Source: Lathyrus oleraceus
Taxonomy: Eukaryota > Streptophyta > Magnoliopsida > Fabales > Fabaceae
DNA length: 64,000 bases
NCBI RefSeq assembly: GCF_024323335.1
Contig: NC_066579.1
Location: 247,931,575-247,995,574 of the forward strand
Reading direction: 5' to 3'
Part shown: positions 1 through 54,252 of the stretch, one piece after another
Numbering within the stretch: position 1 is the stretch's first letter
Layout of the letters: each line of letters begins with the position of its first letter
The notes under the pieces: generated by a model
What the model saw: the letters and a program-made list of their open reading frames with translations, nothing else
What the model was told of the DNA's origin: nothing
Databases searched by the model: none
Made by a program: the position numbers and the translations under genes

Positions 1-1394
1 GCATCAATTATAGGTTAACCCTCAATGCTCCATCTTTTGAGTCTTCGATTTATAGATAGAACGATCCCTATGTGATATCCTTGATTCTCCTATTCAGTCT
101 TTCTACTTTTATCTATTCTCTTCTTTTTTATCATTGTATGACATGTTGCTTGAGATTAACTTTGTGTTAATTCTCTAACTTGTCTAAAACGTACATTGAT
201 ATTGACCGACCTCGGATAGGTATGACTTCCACATAAGCCTACTTACGATTGCTTAACATAGCGCTAAATTATCCCAACATGATTAATTGACCATTAACTC
301 CTAACATTACTTCGTGTTCTTTACATTATTGACATTTAAATCTTTCCATTTAATTCAAGTCATTTAGTTTTTGTCATTTAATTTTATGCCATTTACTTAA
401 TGCATTTTAATTTCATGTATTATTAATCATCCCATCATCTCATAATATATTCATATTACCTTATTCATTTGTTGCTTCATATCTTATTTGATTGATTTAC
501 TTGTTAATCTTAATGAATCAAAACATGATAAAGCAGCTTGGACTTAATCTTAACCATATGCTTGACTTGGAGTTTTTAAGACCTTTTGGACTTTGAACTT
601 TGACTTAGGTTTAAACCCTTTGCTTGACTTGGAGTGACCCTGGGACTCATGGACCTTGTGTACTTTTTGACTTGCTTTTGAGTTTGTGGTCCTATTCCTC
701 TATTTTATTCATATGTTTTATGCCTCTTACATTCATCTGGTTAGGTTTAGCACACCTTTTACACACACATGACTTTCTCTTGGGTTACCTAACAATGAGA
801 CATAGGATAATACACTTTGCACCAATATGGCTTTCTCTTGGGCTACCTAACAATGAGACCTTAGGCTAGTTTGTATGGTCATGCATCTTTGTTTGTTCAT
901 CAATCCCTTTCCTTTGATTTGGCTTGATCAAATTCCCATTTGATCAACTAGATCCTTTCATCTGTTACATTTCCCCTTTGTATTTGGCAAGTGACTATAA
1001 TTCCCTTGGTCACTTGATGGGACTTGTCTTTGTTACTTTAGAGCATAAACCTCTCAACTATTTCAAAATTCCTAATGGATTACAAATCTCTTCATCAGAT
1101 CTCGGTCATCTGGTTTACCCCCACGAGCATCTTCGGGAACCTGTTTCAACAACTTGTCAGTCATTAACTAGGCTTGCATGCCATGAGCCTTAAGCAATAT
1201 AAAATTATGAGAGGGGGTCTTCCCTAAACTTGTCTAGAATATCTTTGAGTACAAGACGAATGACCCAGTTGCTCGGAGTAATTGTCTCTGTTCATAGACT
1301 TTAGTGCAATTCCCGTCAACTCACCGTCAACTATGCAACTAACCTTGTGGCTCTTTTTTCTCTTCTTTTGGTTTAAACACAATTTCTCACAATC

Positions 1395-1990
1395 TTGGGA
1401 TACACCGTCATGGTTATTCCCATTTCTTGGTTTTGACACCCCAATTTTGGGATACAACTTTATAGTCATTCCGCTTTCTTGGTGTAAACACCATTGCTCA
1501 CATTTTCGGGATACACCTTTATGGTCATTCCCCTTTCATGGTTTTGACACCGCTATTTTGTGATACACCTTCATGGTCATTCCCCTTTCTTGGTTTTGAC
1601 ACCACAATTTTGGGATACACCTTCATGGTCATTCCCCTTTCTTGGTTTAAACACCATTGCTCACATTTTTGGTATATACCTTCATGGTCATTCCCATTTC
1701 TTGGTTTTGACACCACAATTTTGGGATACACCTTCATGGTTATTCCCCTTTCTTGGTTTTGACACCACAATTTTGGGATACACCTTCATGCTCATTCCCC
1801 TTTCTTGGTTTTGACAGCACAATTTTGGGATACACCTTCATGGTCATTCCCCTTTCTTGGTTATAACACCACTTTATTTTTGGGATACACCTTCATGGTC
1901 ATTTTCCATTTCATGGTTATAACACCATTTTCTTTTAGGATACACCTTCATGGCCATTCTACATTTCTTGGTATAAATATCATCCCTTAA
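1395..1990. repeat. Tandem array, period about 52 bp, about 11 units
   Basis: Units read roughly 'gggatacaccttcatggtc' followed by 'attcccctttcttgg' and 'ttttgacaccacaatttt', with spacings of 52-58 bp. Variant units have 'gtttaaacaccattgctcac' in place of the last part. Because the period is often a multiple of three, several frames stay open on both strands; these are repeat artefacts, not genes. A degraded unit recurs around the insertion site of element B (3490-3530 joined to 25132-25170). Confidence 0.85.
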
Positions 1991-2154
1991 CATGTGAGAC
2001 CAAGTGCTTTGGTAAGACCCTTATCATGACAGTCCCTACGCTTTGATAAGTTCCTATTTTCTTACCTACCATATCAGTGTCAATGCCTTGGTAGGCCTCT
2101 TTTCCTTCCTTTAGTTTAAACACCACCCCCAATCATCTTCTTTTTCAGATTTTT

Positions 2155-2480
2155 CCTCCGAACTATGGAGCTCTGACTTCCTTATTGCATTATGAGGATA
2201 CGTAGGCACAAGGATGTGAATCCTTGGCGATCACCTTTCTCCATCCTTCTTTCCTCTCCCCATTTTCATTCTCTGGTTCTCCAAACTATGGAGCTCTGAG
2301 TTCCTTATTGCACTATGAGGATACGTAGGCACGAGGATGCGACTCCTTGGCGAGCACCTTTCTCCATCCTTCTTTCCTCTTCCCCCTTTTTCTTTCCCTA
2401 GTTCTCTGAACTACGAGGCTTTGACTTTCTCATTCCACCATGAGAATACATAGGCATGAGGGCCCCAATCCTCCTCGAGC
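2155..2480 (+). repeat. Three tandem copies of a conserved LTR motif, about 124 bp each
   Basis: Copies start near 2158, 2281 and 2405. Each has 'gaactatggagctctga' or a variant, then 'ttccttattgca', 'gaggatacgtaggcac' and 'tccttggcga', then a pyrimidine-rich stretch. Single copies of the core occur near the 3' end of the LTRs of A and B (for example 53865-53920), and two copies occur in the N1 LTR at 16490-16690. Confidence 0.75.
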
Positions 2481-2744
2481 CCCTTTTTCTAACCCCTTAT
2501 CTTTTGCAGGTACATGAAGATAATAACATCCATCAAAGCAAGAGCGTTCAAAAAGCTTCCATTGGAGTACCATGAATGTGAGGGGTGTTAATACCTTCCC
2601 GATGCATAACCTATTTTCTTACCTATTTCTCTGTTCCCCCTTGGGTTTTATAGATATTTTCCCTTCCCTCTTTTGTCATAAATAAAGTTTAATGGCGAAT
2701 CTGTTGTACCTTCGAGCATGGAATGTGTTCGGTAGGCATATTCC

Positions 2745-3525
2745 AGTTAGGTTCGGGAGTGACCTTGGACCCTTGGACCTTATGGACACTTTTACTTTGC
2801 ACATTGTTCGCTTGTTGAACTATTGAACTTATTTTTGTTCACTTGGTTTATGTCTCTGCTTATCATATTCATCTATTTAGGTTATCACACATTAGCACAC
2901 ACATGGCTTTCTCTTGGGCTACCTAACAATAAGACTAGGCTTAGTACACTTTGCAACAACATGACTTTATCTTAGGATACCTAATAATGAGACCCTAAGT
3001 TAGTCTATATTTGACCATGCATTGTATGTTCTATTCTTCTCATTCCCTCTGATTTAGCTTGATCAATTTCCATTTGATCAACTAGATCCTACAACTTTGC
3101 ACATATTCCCTTTGTCTTTGTTAAGTGACCGTAAGTCCCTTGGTCACTTGATGGGACTTGTCTTTATCACTTTGGAGCTTCAGCCTCTCAGCAAGTACAA
3201 GACCTCAAGCACCAGTCAGACATCACCCATCTGCCTCATTCGTACAGTTCATCTTTGAGAAACAATTTCAATAACTTGTCAGACATTGACAAAGATTGCA
3301 TGCCATAAGCCTTAAGCAATAGATAAGGGGTGATTGGGAGCATTCTTATCCTTATTCTGAATATTTTGGGTACAGGACGAATAACCTAATTGCTCAGAGT
3401 ATTCATCTATATTCATAGATTTTAGTGCAATTTTAGTCAATTCACTAACAAGTCTGCAACTAGCCCTGTGGCTTCTCCTTTTAGATCCTTTTAGTTTAAA
3501 CACCATTGTAACTTCCTCCTTGGAA
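2745..3525 (+). repeat. Second copy of the 620-1490 segment
   Basis: Positions 2757-3500 repeat 628-1500 in the same orientation: 'gggagtgacc', the twin 'ggctttctcttgggctacctaacaat' motifs, 'gatcaactagatcct', 'gcatgccat(g/a)agccttaagcaat' and the 'ttagtgcaatt' block. The offset is about 2.1 kb. It continues past element B at 25132. It may be a second LTR of the outer element or an internal duplication. No coding signal. Confidence 0.7.
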
Positions 3526-3530
3526 CACAC
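3526..3530. repeat. Target-site duplication of element B, left copy (CACAC)
   Basis: CACAC directly precedes the LTR start, and the identical CACAC follows the 3' LTR at 25127-25131. Five bases is the normal size for LTR retrotransposons. Confidence 0.9.
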
Positions 3531-5681
3531 TATAAGACCCCAATTTTGACCCTAAGATCCCTCATGCAATTTCATCATATGCATTAGCATTAGGATCATA
3601 CCTTGGCATCCTCCTTAACCCTATTTCATTGGGTTTGCTTTGGGAGAGATCACCAAGCACTATGTGTTTGTATCATACTTGTATATTATCATTTTACTAA
3701 CCAAAATACCAAATATGTCTTTGCATTTTCCTAACTCTTTTGGAGGTAGGGCATGATCATCATTGATCTATCAAGTTCATATTTAGGGTTTAAGACCCTC
3801 ATAGCTAAGAGCACAACCAAGGCTTGATTCACAATGTCTCAAAGCATCATATATGACTCCCAATGATCTCTACATCTTATATTGATCAAGCATTCTTCAA
3901 GAATTTGGAGGTGATTTGCCTTGGAAACCCTAGTTTGATTGGGTATCTTGAGTAACTTCTCCAACAAGCTATCTCACAAATTGATCAAATTTCTCAAGGG
4001 AAATTTCAAAACTCATGATCTTATGCATATATGATCTACCATGAGCCTAGAAAGTCAAGAGAATTGGAAGTTATCAAGTTGGTTGATGGTGGTTGGCAAG
4101 ATGAATTCATCTAATCAAAGTTGGGCCTCCCTACACCCTATCTCCTACAATTTTCACCATATGGAAATTATTCCAAGAGAAAAGTTACTCTAAATGACAT
4201 TCCAAACAACTTTCACTTTTAAGTCTAGATCTGATTTTGCTTGGAAAGTCATTTTACATGTCGAACCATTATAGGTCATTTTGTCTAAACCCTAATTTGA
4301 AAGTCACCTTCCCAAAACCATAACTTGCTCAAATTTTATGATATGAAAGATTTCCAAGTTGCACATTCAAATTTAAGATGACTACTTCAACTTTGATGTT
4401 TTGAGTGAGAGCTAAATCAACTTTTATGAGCATGTGATATGAGGATACGTTCATGGTCATTCCTCCTTGTGCATATTTTGTTTGCTGGTGTGGTCTTTGA
4501 CCATTAATGTACGTAATAAGAACAAAAACCCTAAAAAACTATTGTGTGGACTGTTGGTTTGATCTTGGACAATTGGAGTTAGAATTTAGATAACATCCCT
4601 ATGCAAAAGGACTTGGCCAATGCCAACTTTCATGTAACCAAGTGCTTGCAATTTGAAACTTCATCAGATTCATCATTGAAGATCCATCTGAAATCATCTG
4701 CAACATGATCATTGTGAAGTTGTTATTTTGAACCTGTGACTTAAGGAATTCATCTGCTACATAGGTCAATTTGAAGAAGATTATGGAGTGGTTAAATCTT
4801 GGATGTGTCCATCTTTTTTTGATGACTTTCTCTTCAAGTTAATATGTTATGCATTGTTTGTTTCTTGATTCTAATTTCTAACGGAATTTGGGTTTCTATC
4901 TGGAATTCTTGCTTATTGGATTGCAGCCCATTGGCCAGATCTTTTCAACTCTTAACTTTTAAATTTATGCTTAGGATTAGTCTCTTCATCTCCTCCCCAC
5001 TTCTTTAAGTTCAAAAATCTCTCCCTCCTTTCAAAAATATTCTTTGCTTGTGTTTGTAGACTTTTAAACTTTGACCACTTTTGCAAACTAGAAACCTTGG
5101 CCTTAAGCCATTGCATTTTCAAACTTCTTTTATTAAATCAAACTTATAAATATACTTAACTATACTTGAATTGAAATTTTCAAAAGCCAAAAAGAACTAA
5201 GTCATTCAAAACATTTTCTAGGCCTTTGTGCCTTTTAAACCTAATTTTCGTTAAAAGCAATGTATCCACTTTGAAATTTGTATCACGAACTACGAGGTTT
5301 TGATCCCTCATTTTTATGTTGGTACGTAGGCACAAGTTCGAAGGTCTTGTCAAACACAAAAATATAATTAATGAACTCTTTTCTCATCCCCCCATTCTAT
5401 TTGTTAGTAAACATCACTTTGTACAAAATACATATGCACACAAGAAAGGGCTCCCTAGGAGTACCTAGGATACTCTGTGTGCCAACACCTTCCCTCTGTG
5501 TAAACAAACCCCTTACCTGTGATCTCTGGCATTTTATTAGTTTTGATTTGAAAACTTCTTATTTTTGGGTTTTATTCGTACTTTTCCCTTTTCCCTTGGA
5601 AACAATAAAAGCGCGGTGGCGACTCTTGTTATTTGATGTCATGCTTATCCATAGCTTAATGATCATGAATTTACCGCTACA
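3531..5681 (+). repeat. 5' LTR of element B, internally deleted
   Basis: Begins TATAAGACCCCAATTTTGAC (the family consensus begins TGTAAG, so the terminal dinucleotide has mutated) and ends 'ccgctaca'. It is 2.15 kb against 4.7 kb for the 3' LTR. At 4449-4466 an 18-bp filler replaces what is 21345-23909 in the 3' LTR, a loss of about 2.55 kb that includes the LTR TATA box. An 'aataaa' signal lies at about 5603-5609. Confidence 0.9.
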
Positions 5682-23400: not shown

Positions 23401-25126
23401 TTTTGCATATTATTTTTTGTGTGTGGTATGTTTAATGAGCATAGTCCATTATACTATGCTCTAACATGCATTAACACCAAAATTCTATTGCTCAGCCTCA
23501 AATAGTTGTGACTTCTACATAAGTCCAATTACGATTACTTAACATAGCGCTAAATTTTTGACACAAAAAGGCATAACATTCTAGTTAGTGAGATTGTAAG
23601 TCTCCCCTCTTTCATGGTATTGTGTGGAAACTTGACCTTTTTTCCTTTCTTTGGAAGATGTCTTGGTTCAAGGATCCACGCTTGTGATAAGTGGGTTTCA
23701 TGTTCTCCAAAGAATGACTTAAACAAAAAAGCAAAAGCAATACTGACTTCTAACTCATTAACAACTAACATTTAATTTCAAGCCATTTACTTTTAATGCC
23801 ATTTAATTTTAAGCTCTATTCATTTGCCATTATTCATACCATTCTAATTGTTTATATTAATGCCATTTTCACTTTGCCCACTTAGACCATATTGTGTGAT
23901 ATATCTTGTTTGTGCATATTTTGTTTGCTTGTGTGGTCTTTGACCATTAATGTTCATAATAAGAACAAAAACCCTAAAAAAACTATTGTGTGGACTATTG
24001 GTTTGATCTTGGACAATTGGACTTAGAATTTAGACAACATCCCTATGCAAAAGGACTTGGCCAATGCCATTTTTCATGTAACCAAGTGCTTGCAATTTGA
24101 AACTTCATATGATACATCATTGAAGATCCATTTGAATTCATCTGCAGCATGATCATTGTGAAGCTGTTATTTTGAACCTGTGACGTGTGGAAATCATCTG
24201 CTACATAAGTCAATTTGAAGAAGATTATGGAGTGGCTAAAGCTTAGATGTGGCCATCTTTATTTGATGCCTTGCTCTTCAAGTTAATATGTTATGCATTG
24301 TTTGTTGCTTGATTCTAATGTCTAAGGGAATTTGGGTTTCTATATGGTATTCTTGCATATTGGATTGCAACCCGTTGGTCAGATCTTTTCAACTCTTAAC
24401 TTTTAAATTTATGCTTAGGATTAGTCTCTTCATCTCCTCCCCACTTCTTGAATTTCAAAAATCTCTCCCTCCTTTCAAAAATATTATTTGCTTGTGTTTG
24501 TAGATTTTTAAACTTTGACCACTTTTGCAAGCTAGAAACCTTGGCCTTAAGCCATTGCATTTTCAAACTTCTTTTCTTAAATCAAACTTATAAATATACT
24601 TAATTATACTTGACTTAAAATCTTCAAAATCCAAAAACAACTAACTCATTCAAACCATTTTCTAGGCCTTTGTGCCTTTTAAACCTAATGTTTGTTAAAA
24701 GCAATGCATCCACTTTGAAATTTGTATCACGAACTACGGGGTTTTGATCCCTCATTTTTATGTTGGTATGTAGGCACAAGTTCGAAGGTCTTGTCAAATA
24801 CAAAAATATAATTAATGAATTCTTTACTCATCCCCCCATTCTATTTGTTTGTAAACATTACTTTGTACAAAATACATATGCACACAAGAAAGGGCTCCCT
24901 ATGAGTACCTAGGACACTTAGGGGGCTAACACCTTCCCTCTGTGTAAAAAAATCCCCTTACTTGTGATCTCTGGAATTTTATTAGTTTTTATTTGAAAAC
25001 TTCTTATTTTTGGGTTTTGTTCGTACTTTTCCCTTTTCCCTTGGAAACAATAAAGGTGTGGTGGCGACTCTTGTTATTTGATGTCTTGCTTATCCATAGC
25101 TTGATGATCATGAATTTATCGCTACA
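20427..25126 (+). repeat. 3' LTR of element B
   Basis: 4.70 kb, TGTAAGACCC…GCTACA. The 'gaactacggggttttgatccctcat' and 'ggtatgtaggcac' motif is at 24732-24778, 'aataaa' at 25048-25055, and a PBS-like TGGCGACTCT at 25062-25071. It contains open frames up to 89 codons that lack coding character. Confidence 0.92.
21939..21946 (+). promoter_or_regulatory. TATA box of element B 3' LTR
   Basis: TATAAATA in 'aaatgctataaatacaaggcc'. Element A's 3' LTR has TATAAATA in the same context (51071-51078). The distance to the LTR end (about 3.2 kb) implies a very long R/U5. It could drive transcription out of B into the flanking remnant of element C (antisense to it). Confidence 0.7.
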
Positions 25127-32964: not shown

Positions 32965-32967
32965 GTG
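32965..32967. repeat. Target-site duplication of the CACTA element, left copy (GTG)
   Basis: GTG before CACTAC. The right copy is 36770-36772. The 3' LTR of A reads 'ctttgggtgctaacacc' without interruption at 54040-54056. Confidence 0.9.
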
Positions 32968-32989
32968 CACTACGCCAAAAATGACTTTT

Positions 32990-33345
32990 AACAGCGCATC
33001 TTAGACAGCGCTTTTAAAAGAAAGCGCTGTCTAAGGTTAAAATTAAAATAAAACACGGAAAATGTTCCAAAAAAATAATGAAAGCGCTGTCTAAGGGGGG
33101 GTCTTAGACAGCGCTTTCTAAAAGCGCTGTCTAAGACCCCCCCTTAGACAGCGCTTTTAGAAAGCGCTTTTAAATATAGACCTTAGTCAGCGCTTTTGAT
33201 AAAGCGCTGTCTAAAGTCTTTAAATTAAAAAAAAAATTAAAACCAAAAGCGCTGTCTAAGGGGGGGTTTAGAAAGCGCTTTTGGAAAGCGCTGTCTAAGG
33301 CATACCTTAGAAAGCGCTTTCCACAAAAGCGCTGTCTAAGGTCTA
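32990..33345. repeat. Left subterminal repeat region of the CACTA element
   Basis: Roughly ten copies of the 15-bp 'ttagacagcgctttt' unit in both orientations, separated by short AT-rich spacers. Several are arranged head to head and can form hairpins (for example 33080-33150). Confidence 0.88.
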
Positions 33346-33360
33346 ATTAAAATAAAATTT

Positions 33361-35985
33361 CAGACTCCATTTCAATTTTCGTTCTCAGTTCTTTTGTTTT
33401 CCCTCCTGCGAACGTTGAAACCCTATCAGCGAAAACCATAACAGCGAACACGAATACACTTCCATTTTTCGGTTTCAATCATTGGAAGGATGGTTATACC
33501 TTATACGCTGTAACCGTTTTGGACTTCAGTTTTCGCGTAAGCGTTACTTCGTTCTCGATCATCACCTTCTTCGTAGCTTCAAATCCGTTCCCAATTCCGA
33601 CGATCAGGTTCATCGCTTTTTTTTTTCAATTTCATTTCGCCGATTATTTTATCAATTGAATCGGTTCGGTTGATAACGAAGTTAGAAATGTTACTGTATT
33701 GTGTTTGTTAGATTAGATTCTCTGAAACTGAATCTGAAACGGAAACGGAAACGGAAAGTTTCTTTTTCAGGATCCTGTTAGAAGTGCTATTGTGGATTCG
33801 TGTATTCGTGTAATGGATAATGGAAGGGAGAGTATTAACAGAAAAGTATATGCTTACTTTAATCTTTCATTTTTTCATTTTTGTTTTTTATAATAATTAT
33901 TATTGGTTTTTGTGTTCAAATGGTTGCAGGCTTAATGTTTGTTTATCTGCGTGAATTTTTTAGGTGTTTTTCATTTTCACACTATATAACACTTCGAATC
34001 ATAATGATCGATTAAAGGTGAGGTGACTATTAGAGTATTAGGTTTACATTGAAATATAGGTTGTTGTTAATTTGAAATTATGTTTCAATTTGGAATTACA
34101 AAACATGAGTGTTGTAGTTAGGAGCGAGCCGTCCTGAAGAAGCAGCGAGATGGATTCAATGCTTTCATGAAGCGTCTTTGAAGGTATATATGTTTATATA
34201 GTTTATGCATGATCTGAGGCTTTTTTTTAGCTTGTGGTGGAACTGTTTGAATGATGGATGAAGCTATTGTTGTTAATATGTGCAGGGTGCCCCAGAAGAT
34301 ATAGGATGTTCCAAGAGGAAATGGCAGTCTTATAGGTATTTTTATCTTTCCTTTAAATGATTTTTACTGCAACAAAAAGTTTTATGTTGACTGAGTTAAT
34401 AAGCATTTGAAGCTGTCTTGAGCTATATTTTTTTGTTGTATTTGTTGCATGATCTTTTGTTTCTTTTTTGGTGCGATGCTTACAGCTTAAGTGGATCTTC
34501 CAGTAGAAATCACCAAAATTCTATAGACTGGACACTCTCTTCTTCTGATGTTATTGCCCCATCACCTTGGACAATCTTTGGCTGCCAAAATGGTAAAAAA
34601 TTATTTCACAATTGCTGTTTTTTTATTCAAAAATAGTTTTTGTAAGTTCACATGATCAAAACCTAGCTAACACTTGCACTAATGTTTTTATGGGTGTAAC
34701 GAAGGTTTACGACTATTCAAGGAAGCAAAAGATAGGGATTCTGGTGGGAAGGTTGGCAAAGTTTCTTTTCAGTAAAAGGTTGTTTATATTTAATTTAAAA
34801 TGAAAACGACTAATTCTTGAATACCCTGTCCAATCTCTAGAAACGAGATGATCATCCCGCAATAATGGCTGTTGGTGTGGTAGATGGAACTTCAGAAGCC
34901 ATTTTCCAGACTCTTATGGCACTTGGTCCTTCAAGATCCGAGTAAGTCCATTAACTGGATGTAGTCTTGCTCAATGGCACTGCTAGATTAACAAGCAAAT
35001 GTTATTTTATGTCTTGGGATAATTTCATTTCTTTTATTATTGACGCGGGCTTTTAGTGTGTTATGTTACGGGGGGAGTTGGCTTTGCATATTGTAACTTT
35101 TTCTAACAGAAAATGTTAGTACGGAAGTTGAACCTCTGCCCTCCTTTTCACTCCAAGTCCAATGCTTTTGTCCATTCCCTGAAACCAACCCATCCATCTT
35201 ATAACCCCTTGAGATGGTCAGAGTTACAATGTCACCGTATATTATATCTATGCAATTTTACTATATTATTTTTTTATGGGTAAATGATTATATTCCTGTA
35301 CAAGAGATTGTTGGAAGTGTAAGAGCAAAACAAACTAAACCAAAGCTCTGAAGAAATGAAAATAATCCGAATAAACCTTACAGTCTTCTTATGCTCTATC
35401 TTGGAAAGCCATTGGCAAATGGTGTCCTTGCATTCCATCTAAGAACACCATTAGCCCATCATCATTTGCATAAAATAAAAGGACAGCATAATCGAACTTC
35501 ACCCAAGTTCCCTTCTCAGTTTAGTCCCCCCAAAATCTGCCGAATGATATGTCTAATAAAAAAGCTCTGGATTATATTAACAAGTCTACCATCAACCAAA
35601 ACCAACATCAAGATCCTGTGGAACTTTTAACTGGACATTGATAAATGATCTTTTACTTTATGGTCAACAATCTTGCCCATAAACCAAGGTAAACATGAGT
35701 GCTTTGTTTGAAATAATAGTGTGTAGGAATCTGGTCTGTATACTTTTACATTTAACATTTCAATTAACTGCAAAGAGAAAGTTTAGTCATATATAGGTTA
35801 TGTTATAGCAATGGATAGGTAAGCAGAACAATCATGCTGAAATTCTATAAACCATGGTTTTCAAGTGTTTTTTGCCTTGTTACAAACTCTTGGTTTGCAG
35901 ATGGGATTTCTGTTTTTCCAAGGGGAGTGTAGTTGAGCACCTAGATGGTCACACCGACATTATTCTTAAAAGTAATGTATGCTGA
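33361..35985 (+). pseudogene. Captured 5' part of an EDR2-like gene (PH domain and start of START domain)
   Basis: ATG at 33482. Exons read as 33482-33607, 33771-33845, 33964-34017, 34118-34183, 34286-34335, 34486-34592, 34705-34751, 34841-34941 and 35901-35985. Introns have GT…AG ends, and the exon lengths sum to 711 bases: 236 codons plus a TGA, with no internal stop. The first four exons give a PH domain (MEGWLYLIRCNRFGLQFSRK, DNGRESINRK, EEAARWIQCFHEASLK). Later exons give NSIDWTLSSSDV, PSPWTIFGCQN, MAVGVVDGTSEAIFQTLMA and WDFCFSKGSVVEHLDGHTDI, the start of the START domain as in ENHANCED DISEASE RESISTANCE 2. After ILK the match ends. The exon 7 donor (GTTGGC) and exon 8 start are the weakest calls. 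33361-33481 looks like 5' UTR. Family assignment is from motif memory. Confidence 0.85.
34942..35900 (+). other. Long last intron of the captured EDR2-like fragment
   Basis: 959 bp from a good donor (GTAAGT) to 'tttgcag'. It is much longer than the other introns (about 100-165 bp). It holds a 79-codon frame at 35391-35630 that I do not recognise. It could contain a later small insertion; no terminal repeats were found by eye. Confidence 0.5.
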
Positions 35986-36329
35986 AACTGTAGAAATAGT
36001 AAACATTTTTATTTCCTTCTATAAGCTGGTCTCATACTACCTAGAAAATAAATTTAATACTATTGCAATCATGATGTTGCTGCTTTATTCATTTTCATTC
36101 TGAACTTTAAGATTAGTTTGCCAATTCTTGAATCATTTTCCTTCACTTAATCGCTATTGTCATCATATTATCCAATTTATCTATATTTCAGGATTTCCAA
36201 ATTATGTATTTGACATATATAAAATGTGATAATTGTCTGTCAAAATCTGGTTGAAAACAGGTAGAAATTCTGGTTTATAAACCTGGAAAAAATGTGGTTT
36301 AAAACAAAAGCTTCAAAAATTTTCGTATA

Positions 36330-36760
36330 CCTTAGACAGCGCTTTTGTAAAAAGCGCTGTCTAAGGGGGGGATTAGAAAGCGCTTTAGGCAAAAGCGCTG
36401 TCTAAGGGGGGGGGGGGGGGGGGGGGGGGCTTAGACAGCGCTTTTTGAAAAGTGTCGTCTAAGGTATACCAAAAAAAATTAAAATAGGAGGGTCTTAGAA
36501 AGCGCTTTTGGCCAAAGCGTTGTCTAAGGGGGTGGGGCTTAGACAGCGCTTTTCAAAAGCGCTGTCTAAGGTATACCTAAAAAATTTAAAATAAGAGGGT
36601 CTTATAAAGCGCTTTTGGCCAAAGCGCTGTCGGGGGGGGGGGCTTAGACAACGCTTTTAAGATTTAAAAAAGCGCTGTCTAAACCTTTAGCAGCGGAGGT
36701 TTAGACAGCGCTTTAAAGCGCTGTCTAAGGCTAAAAAAAGCGCTGTCTAAGGTCTTGTTT
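36330..36760. repeat. Right subterminal repeat region of the CACTA element, with a G24 run
   Basis: About ten copies of the 'agcgctgtctaag' / 'cttagacagcgct' unit. Position 36406-36429 is a run of 24 G, and shorter G runs lie at 36365-36371 and 36632-36641. Confidence 0.88.
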
Positions 36761-36769
36761 GTTGTAGTG

Positions 36770-36772
36770 GTG
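36770..36772. repeat. Target-site duplication of the CACTA element, right copy (GTG)
   Basis: Identical to 32965-32967. Confidence 0.9.
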
Positions 36773-52500: not shown

Positions 52501-54252
52501 ACATGAGCATGGATGAGATTAGGCCATACCTTTTACATATTCTTTTTGTGTGTGGTATGTTTCATGAGCATAGTCCATTATACTATGTCTCTAACATGCA
52601 TTAACACCAAAATTCTATTGCCCGACCTCAAATAGTTGTGACTTCTACATAAGTCCAATTACGATTGCTTAACATAGGGCTAAATTTGTGACATAAAAGG
52701 CATAAGCATTCTAGTTAGTGAGATTGTAAGTCTCCCATATTTCATGGTATTGTGTGGAAACTTGGCCTTCTTTCCTTCCTTTGGAAGATGTTTTGGCTCA
52801 AGGATTCATTCTTGTGATAAGTGGGTTGAGTGTTCTCCAAAGAATGTCTTGAAACGAAAAGTAAAAGCAAAACAATACTAACTTCTAACCTACTAACTAC
52901 TAACTTTTAATTTAAAGCCTTTACTTTAATGCAATTATTTTTAGCACTCTATTTCATTTTCCTTTGTTCATATCATTCTAATTGTTTATGTTAATGCAAT
53001 TTTCACTTTATCCATTTGGACCATATTGTGTGATATATTTTGTTTGTGAATACTTTGCTTGTTTTTGTGGTCTTTGACCATTAATGTACATAATAATAAC
53101 AAAAACCCTAAAAAAAAATTCAGTGGGCTGTTGCCTTGATCTTGGACAAATGGATTTAGAATCTATGCAACCTTCCTATGCTAAAGGACTTGGCCAATGC
53201 CAACTTATTGAAGAATCAAGTGCTTGCAATTTGAAATTCATCTGATACACCTTTGAAGACATCTCTAAGTTTATCTGCAACATGATCATTGTGAAGCTGT
53301 TATTTTGAACCTGTGACTTGTGGAATTCATCTGCCACATGGGCTATTTTGAATAAGATCATGGAATGGATAAGCTTGGATGAGGCCATCTTTATTTGATG
53401 CCTTGCTCTTCAAGATAATATAATTGTGCATTTATGTGTTGCTTGATTCTAAATGTCCAAGAGAATTCTGGGTTTCTATTGACATTCTTGTCTATTGGAT
53501 TGCTACCCACTTGGTCAGATCTTTTCAACTCTAAACTTTTAATTTTTGTGCATAGGATAGTCTCTTCATCTTCCCCCCATTTCTTTAATTTCAAAATATC
53601 TTCCTCCATTTTTCAAAATCTTCTTTGTGTGAACTAATTTTGTTCTAAACTTTAACCATTTTGCAAAAAGATAGAAACTTTGGCTTTATGCCATTGCATT
53701 TTCAAACTTCTTTTTTTAAATCAAACTTGTAAATAAACTTAACTATACTTGGCCTAAACTTTCAAAAAGTCAAAAAGAACTAACTCATTCAAACCCTTTT
53801 AGGCCTTTGTGGCTTTCAAACTTAATTTTGTTAAAAACAATGCATCCACTTTGAAATTTGTATCACGAACTACGAGGTTTTGATCCCTCATTTTTATGTT
53901 GGTACGTAGGCACAAGACCGAAGGTCTTGTCAAACACAAAAATATAATTAATGAATTCTTTTATCATCCCCCCGTTCTATTTTTTTGTAAACCTCACTTT
54001 GTACAAAATACATATGCACACAAAAAAGGCTCCCTAGGACACTTTGGGTGCTAACACCTTCCCTCTATGTAACCAACCCCTTTACCTGTGATCTCTGACC
54101 TTTTTACTAGTTTTAATTTGAAAACTTCTTACTTTTGGGTTTGGTTCATACTTTTCCCCTTTTCCCTTGGAAACAATAAAAGCACGGTGGTGACTCTTGT
54201 TATTTGATCTCTAGCTTGTCAATAGCTTGATGATCATGAATTTCCCGCTACA
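49532..54252 (+). repeat. 3' LTR of element A
   Basis: 4721 bp, TGTAAGACCTCAATTTTGAC…CCCGCTACA. It serves as the uninterrupted reference for the 5' LTR. 'tatcacgaactacgaggttt' and 'ggtacgtaggcac' at 53860-53915; 'aataaa' near 54174. A 146-codon frame (50766-51206) spans the TATA box and start region and is not treated as a gene. Confidence 0.94.
51071..51078 (+). promoter_or_regulatory. TATA box of element A 3' LTR
   Basis: TATAAATA in 'tttcaactataaatagagctcc', 1.54 kb into the LTR and conserved with 21939-21946. The equivalent stretch is missing in the 5' LTR of A. Confidence 0.72.

Follow-up and report, generated by a model that had tools for sequence, protein, structure and literature searches.

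A CACTA element with part of an EDR2-like gene

The window, a stretch of 64,000 nucleotides from the pea (Lathyrus oleraceus) genome assembly, holds a Pack-CACTA copy of 3,802 bp on the forward strand, here called E1 (Table 1). A preliminary description had placed a CACTA transposon with EDR2-like exons at 33361-35985. This interval does lie inside a CACTA element, but the element itself is larger (32968-36769), and 33361-33484 is transposon leader rather than host gene. E1 begins with CACTACGCC... and ends with ...GTTGTAGTG. Read with CACTA first, the inverted repeats at its termini are CACTACGCCAAAAATGAC and CACTACAACAAACAAGAC, equal at 14 of 18 positions as counted by eye. A 3-bp GTG target-site duplication borders the element on both sides, and an unoccupied copy of the target is 97.5% identical to the joined flanks of E1 over 400 bp without gaps. 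The subterminal repeat AAAGCGCTGTCTAAG (up to two mismatches) was found 29 times in the window, on both strands, compared to an average of 0.06 in shuffled sequences, with all 29 matches confined to the two subterminal parts of E1. The inverted repeats, the 3-bp duplication with its empty site, the subterminal repeats and the tnp2 relatives described below are those of the CACTA (En/Spm) superfamily. No open reading frame of at least 250 aa was found inside E1, which is non-autonomous yet was mobile after capture.

Table 1 Features of E1 and its borders, numbered from the first base of the window.
Feature	Position	Strand	Remarks
Left target-site duplication GTG	32965..32967	.	Partner 36770-36772; uninterrupted target copy 53851-54250
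Whole Pack-CACTA element E1, 3802 bp	32968..36769	+	
Left transposon part (terminus, subterminal repeats 33000-33340, leader 33361-33484)	32968..33484	+	Common to family members, best 516/517 bases (L020)
Capture junction, transposon ...CATTG + donor (A)TG-GAAGG, 2-bp TG overlap	33482..33484	+	Same 28-mer at 5 genome places
Donor-derived DNA, second ATG (exon 1) through intron 11, less 358 bp deleted internally	33485..36203	+	Last 5 bases AAATT common to transposon part
Exon 1, begins TTG	33482..33607	+	
Exon 2, holds first in-frame AUG (residue 57)	33771..33845	+	
Exon 3	33964..34017	+	
Exon 4	34118..34183	+	
Exon 5	34286..34335	+	
Exon 6, two synonymous differences from donor (fixed differences include CTC/CTT and AAT/AAC)	34486..34592	+	
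Exon 7	34705..34751	+	
Exon 8	34841..34941	+	
Exon 9 plus, in frame, the very end of exon 11, joined by private 358-bp deletion	35901..35971	+	
Last part of 711-nt frame with its TGA, lying in former intron 11 (GT read through)	35972..35985	+	
Right transposon part: short transposon-intron piece, subterminal repeats 36331-36751, terminus	36204..36769	+	
Right target-site duplication GTG	36770..36772	.	

The repeat into which E1 inserted has further copies in the window at 5271-5679, 24715-25124 and 53851-54250. Dating by these neighbouring repeat copies was set aside, as they are not established as an LTR pair. A run of 24 G is located in the right subterminal part (36406-36429). In the copy E4 (L013:3968-4092) the same run is 112 bases long and runs out in 13 N, hence the assembly breaks at that point.

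The captured reading frame

The nine exons of E1 join to 711 nt, or 236 codons without an internal stop, and all eight internal introns are GT/AG. This reproduces to the base the frame given in the preliminary description. That account had also taken the cargo as the first part of an EDR2-type PH-START gene, copied from genomic DNA with its introns kept, which is borne out by the match to an intact donor (see below); the retained introns rule out a retrocopy origin.

The proposed start and terminal stop of the frame did not hold. Codon 1 is TTG, the capture junction having destroyed the donor ATG, and the frame runs upstream into TGA without meeting an ATG. Once spliced, the frame meets its first AUG at residue 57 of 236, past the midpoint of the PH match (residues 2-104). 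Leader RNA from 33361, spliced as in the donor, would present its first AUG out of frame, opening an ORF of 7 codons. UUG initiation may be conceivable from the sequence. The last codons (SNVC-TGA) are former intron 11, read on through its GT splice site, and follow a 358-bp deletion (breakpoint ~35965) that fuses exon 9 in frame to the end of exon 11. This deletion is private to E1: the segment is kept in the other four copies and in the donor. Its size was taken from three of the copies and from the donor, where it is 357 bp. The stop is thus not native. At a threshold of 0.001, Pfam recognises PH in the 236-residue product and gives no match to START. The complete PH domain claimed earlier is not supported as a product of translation from an AUG. 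Judged against PH, START and EDR2_C with an AUG start, the cargo product has PH alone and no AUG.

An intact donor on C5

The best match to the cargo elsewhere in the genome is an intact EDR2-like gene at C5:614017155-614024834 on the minus strand, for which a hand-built model of 21 exons is open throughout and encodes 732 aa. A Pfam scan of donor residues 1-668 identified PH, START and part of EDR2_C. Among 7995 candidates scored, 648 donor residues match 809 proteins at E 0.001. The best 120 matches range from 97% (Vicia villosa) down to 66% identity, and nearly all contain the three domains; close homologues occur across flowering plants. The donor, with PH, START and EDR2_C, thus resembles the PH-START-DUF1336 proteins of the EDR2 / At2g28320 type, whereas the cargo differs from these in lacking EDR2_C, most of START and the AUG. 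One close homologue (P0112) is labelled 'like AT2G28320'. According to those sections of Vorwerk et al. (PMC1955445) that deal with At2g28320, this protein has the domains of EDR2 but shares only 36% identity with it, and its expression is unresponsive to biotic stress. Hence, the 'defence gene' label of the preliminary description is weak and over-reads the likeness.

One capture gave rise to four insertions

A search of the pea genome itself (3.795 Gb) with the cargo returned the donor and five cargo copies (E1 to E5) among at least 42 matches, a lower bound given that 40 of 502 candidates were scored. All five share one left junction, where the leader ...GGTTTCAATCATTG meets GAAGGATGG. The donor reads ...TCAATGGAAGG at the corresponding place, while the eight family members compared go on with AACGTG.... 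The join is seen directly: transposon base 517 connects to the donor inside its second ATG, identically in the five copies, and the A of this ATG is replaced by a transposon T, giving TTG. The donor's first ATG lies upstream of the junction, outside the captured segment. By exact search, 5 places genome-wide carry the chimeric 28-mer and 136 carry the leader 24-mer.

Of the five copies E2 (C5:611.19 Mb) is the longest. It reaches donor exon 12 and then switches to a transposon open reading frame, which is also present in the family members L017, L019, L020 and L021 and gave no Pfam match when tested in L020. The other four copies are without this right part; their donor DNA stops at AAATT, a motif that is also found in the transposon intron.

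The target-site duplications differ, being GTG for E1, GTT for E3, AGA for E5 and, if its last base has mutated, TAT for E2. E3 and E4 have 2,087 bp of left flank in common at 99.95%, and thus represent one insertion, either duplicated or assembled twice. Their loci (L012 and L013, at C4:268.997 and 269.014 Mb) are ~16.6 kb apart, the duplication being either segmental or an artefact of assembly. One capture therefore underlies four insertions, each carrying the common left junction and a different duplication. The preliminary description had suggested searching for the host EDR2-type locus and for other copies with the same cargo; these searches yielded the C5 donor and the five copies. It had also named a contrary case, in which the exons belong to a host gene and the CACTA ends beside it to unrelated elements, and this is ruled out by a junction common to five copies with duplications of their own.

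Divergence of the cargo and the case for selection

Comparison of E2 to the donor shows that introns differ at 61 of 2117 sites and exons 1-11 at 3 of 856 (p = 2e-6). Exon 12 adds 3 differences in 70 sites, giving 6/926 for the exons together (p = 4e-5). When restricted to columns that are gap-free in all five copies, fixed differences number 52/1728 in introns and 0/537 in exons. Taken alone, the exon deficit between donor and cargo could resemble past selection on the cargo. It would favour a selected gene, whose transcription begins in the leader and whose EDR2-like frame is maintained for the decoy or dominant-negative role that the preliminary description had proposed, as would the joined exons, which are open in E1 to E4, and the existence of database gene models for the cargo. 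Private changes, those found in a single one of the four insertions, do not follow this pattern. They are as frequent per site in exons (6/3105) as in introns (16/8080; p = 1.0, on 22 events only), and four of the six exon changes alter an amino acid. Furthermore, all five copies miss the ATG, E1 has lost most of START, E5 exons 5-6 and E2 the exon 6 splice acceptor. The left transposon part of E1 differs from that of the cargo-free element L020 at 1 of 517 bases and is too young for 3% divergence after capture, unless transposon ends were exchanged. The evenly spread private changes and this young left part tell against selection on the cargo, and the exon deficit probably has another cause (see below). 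A decoy or dominant-negative was thus rejected as the main reading, the AUG being absent and the truncation private; we regard a selected gene as highly improbable, and the role proposed has no support of its own.

The captured allele had probably already diverged from the donor allele present in the assembly. In exon 12, SGGYV is present in E2 and in each of the six plant proteins compared, but SGEYV in the donor, so that the change falls on the resident allele. The opposite applies at the PHQK site, where the element has H and both the donor and Vicia villosa have R; one clover has H. Alternatively, the capture could be older, with transposon ends exchanged later and most of the ~3% intron divergence arising after capture. 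Such exchange is conceivable, given that the ends of family members are near-identical. However, at half of the intron rate ~13 exon changes would be predicted after capture, where 3 are seen (p = 0.001; with exon 12 included, 6/926, p = 0.02). The share of C>T or G>A is also lower among fixed intron changes from donor to element (9/52) than among private changes (11/22; p = 0.008), which is a weak argument against post-capture divergence, as the contrast is not significant when introns alone are used (private 6/16, p = 0.16). An older capture thus seems improbable compared to divergence that preceded the capture.

The transposon family and a possible local parent

A family member with the same left end and leader (L018) contains an ORF of 1090 codons (476-3745, minus strand) with four domains of tnp2-type transposases (Transposase_21, DUF4218, DUF4216 and Transpos_assoc), and may supply the family with transposase. 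Another, L055 (C5:614053204-614059026), has the left part and the right end together with the open reading frame that is joined to exon 12 in E2, and is located 28.4 kb upstream of the start of the donor and on its strand. No other family element was found within the 58 kb examined around the donor. Assuming random spread, the chance of a family element this near the donor is 0.2% (based on 136 leader-carrying copies) or 1.2% (791 exact left ends), for a proximity that was noticed after the fact. Over the left 517 bases L055 is 98.6% identical to E1, compared to 99.8% for L020, and is not the closest relative; this test does not resolve the parent because members differ by few bases. L055 is therefore a possible parent of the capture, with a local origin unproven.

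The main rival to capture by repair synthesis needs no such synthesis. In the general model published for Pack-TYPE elements, as outlined in parts of two reports (PMC8903248; PMC13317346), family elements on either side of a donor segment are mobilised as one and undergo terminal deletions. The presence of L055 shows that insertions near the donor do occur. Nevertheless, this route requires one insertion inside donor exon 12, and both the donor ATG and exon 12 are uninterrupted in the assembly, where L055 is on its own within 58 kb, albeit that the captured allele may have been a different one. At the left junction, an overlap of 2 bp fails to discriminate between the two routes. On balance, we consider two insertions rather unlikely.

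Other genes in sibling elements

Beyond the EDR2-like cargo, we assembled 35 family loci without it (8 from the cargo search and 30 from a leader search, less 3 duplicates). At least eight of these contain pieces of other genes, a lower bound as ORFs were inspected in 19 of the 35 (8 on the forward strand only, 11 on both) and the remainder compared with family interiors. In L015, scanned on the forward strand only, RWD and RRM pieces were identified, with RRM just below the cut-off, and L016 and L022 have the same pieces by DNA match. The others correspond to an F-box (L032), a ubiquitin hydrolase (L038, with nearly the same ORF in L042), an E1-E2 ATPase (L040) and the autoinhibitory domain of a Ca2+-ATPase (L052). 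The long ORFs of L051 and L043 gave no Pfam match. In L047 the leader 24-mer is followed, ~156 bases downstream, by what appears to be a second CACTA left end nested in a family member.

For a comparison of strands, the three longest ORFs were taken from each of 11 loci (18 forward, 15 reverse). Of eight forward ORFs scanned, five (an F-box, two ubiquitin hydrolases, an E1-E2 ATPase and a Ca2+-ATPase) reached a Pfam cut-off, and none of ten reverse ORFs scanned did so, with two weak matches below it. This hints that captures are biased to sense, on the strand of the leader. That the family as a whole took its cargo from a diverged lineage was also considered and is unsupported for the genes tested. 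L015 differs from L057 at 6 of 1451 bases and from L058 at 22 of 1222, these two being listed at 95-96% versus L015 because the search identity counts indels.

The pea family might be a serial captor that repeatedly takes host gene segments, in sense and behind its leader, where they replace the element's gene region. We propose this tentatively and as a joint proposition, which includes template switching onto genes near a parent element as well as transposon-promoted chimeric genes annotated as real; in this full form it is doubtful.

Cargo annotated as pea genes

A protein search using the 236-residue product gave at least 100 matches. Among these, P0123 (hypothetical protein KIW84_012886, 191 aa) starts with M at the position of the TTG in the DNA and is without exon 3; for its placement, E1 is the only cargo match on C1 among the matches listed. 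P0121 (290 aa, from another pea contig and a cluster of 15 sequences) ends in SNVC and carries the element's H, which suggests a cargo copy from a different assembly. P0192 (145 aa, named ENHANCED DISEASE RESISTANCE 2) corresponds to E2 exons 8-12 plus flank, joined through a GC-AG intron (L011 6830-7951) to DNA 388 bp beyond E2. The GC-AG intron suggests that this model has RNA support, and the three models hint that the cargo is transcribed. As judged from their match to the copies, P0123 and P0192 are transposon cargo labelled as pea genes, and at least these two database proteins need their annotation corrected.

Proposed origin of the element

The element carries host gene DNA, has its donor elsewhere in the genome and was mobile after capture, and is thus a Pack-CACTA: a known kind of element with an unusually clear capture history. 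We consider it likely that donor genomic DNA was acquired by template-switch repair copying near a sister element, that transposition then spread the product, and that the cargo is an inert passenger. In the proposed mechanism, repair synthesis near the parent family element would have switched from the transposon to the EDR2-like gene, on an allele diverged beforehand, and then back. Transposition to further sites would have followed, and then decay. The further losses are seen directly in the copies, from intron 11 to the transposon intron across AAATT in four of them, of exons 5-6 in E5 and from exon 9 to exon 11 in E1. Transcripts are predicted to start in the leader and splice the captured exons, leading to chimeric RNA or small RNA as opposed to a normal protein. 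We infer the repair-synthesis capture, the local origin, the diverged allele and the absence of protein function.

To our knowledge, the route by which CACTA elements pick up genes is still unsettled. No earlier account of the pea element was found in the open-licence literature. The closest precedent for captured exons spliced into chimeric RNAs is Tgm-Express1, a soybean CACTA element in the wp allele of F3H, for which the portions of the report concerned (PMC1947982) describe captured exons that are spliced and joined to flanking exons. It shares with the pea element the intron-containing host gene fragments within a legume CACTA, and an exon joining of the type that the P0192 model suggests for E2. 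In contrast, its five fragments derive from unrelated genes, it resides inside a gene intron and its transcripts are proven, whereas the pea element has one gene in five copies, known here from DNA and gene models. Pack-CACTA and other Pack-TYPE elements of Arabidopsis, rice and maize, as characterised in part of PMC8903248, are likewise non-autonomous with captured coding DNA between family ends. The pea case differs in that the left junction is resolved to the donor start codon and the longest copy retains the right junction, while the assembly also holds an intact donor and a possible local parent.

A single assembly thus contains the intact donor, a same-strand element 28 kb away, a copy with both junctions and deletion derivatives, which makes repair copying versus two insertions testable in pea germplasm. 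If the family is indeed a serial captor, genome annotation would already count transposon-promoted chimeric genes as real.
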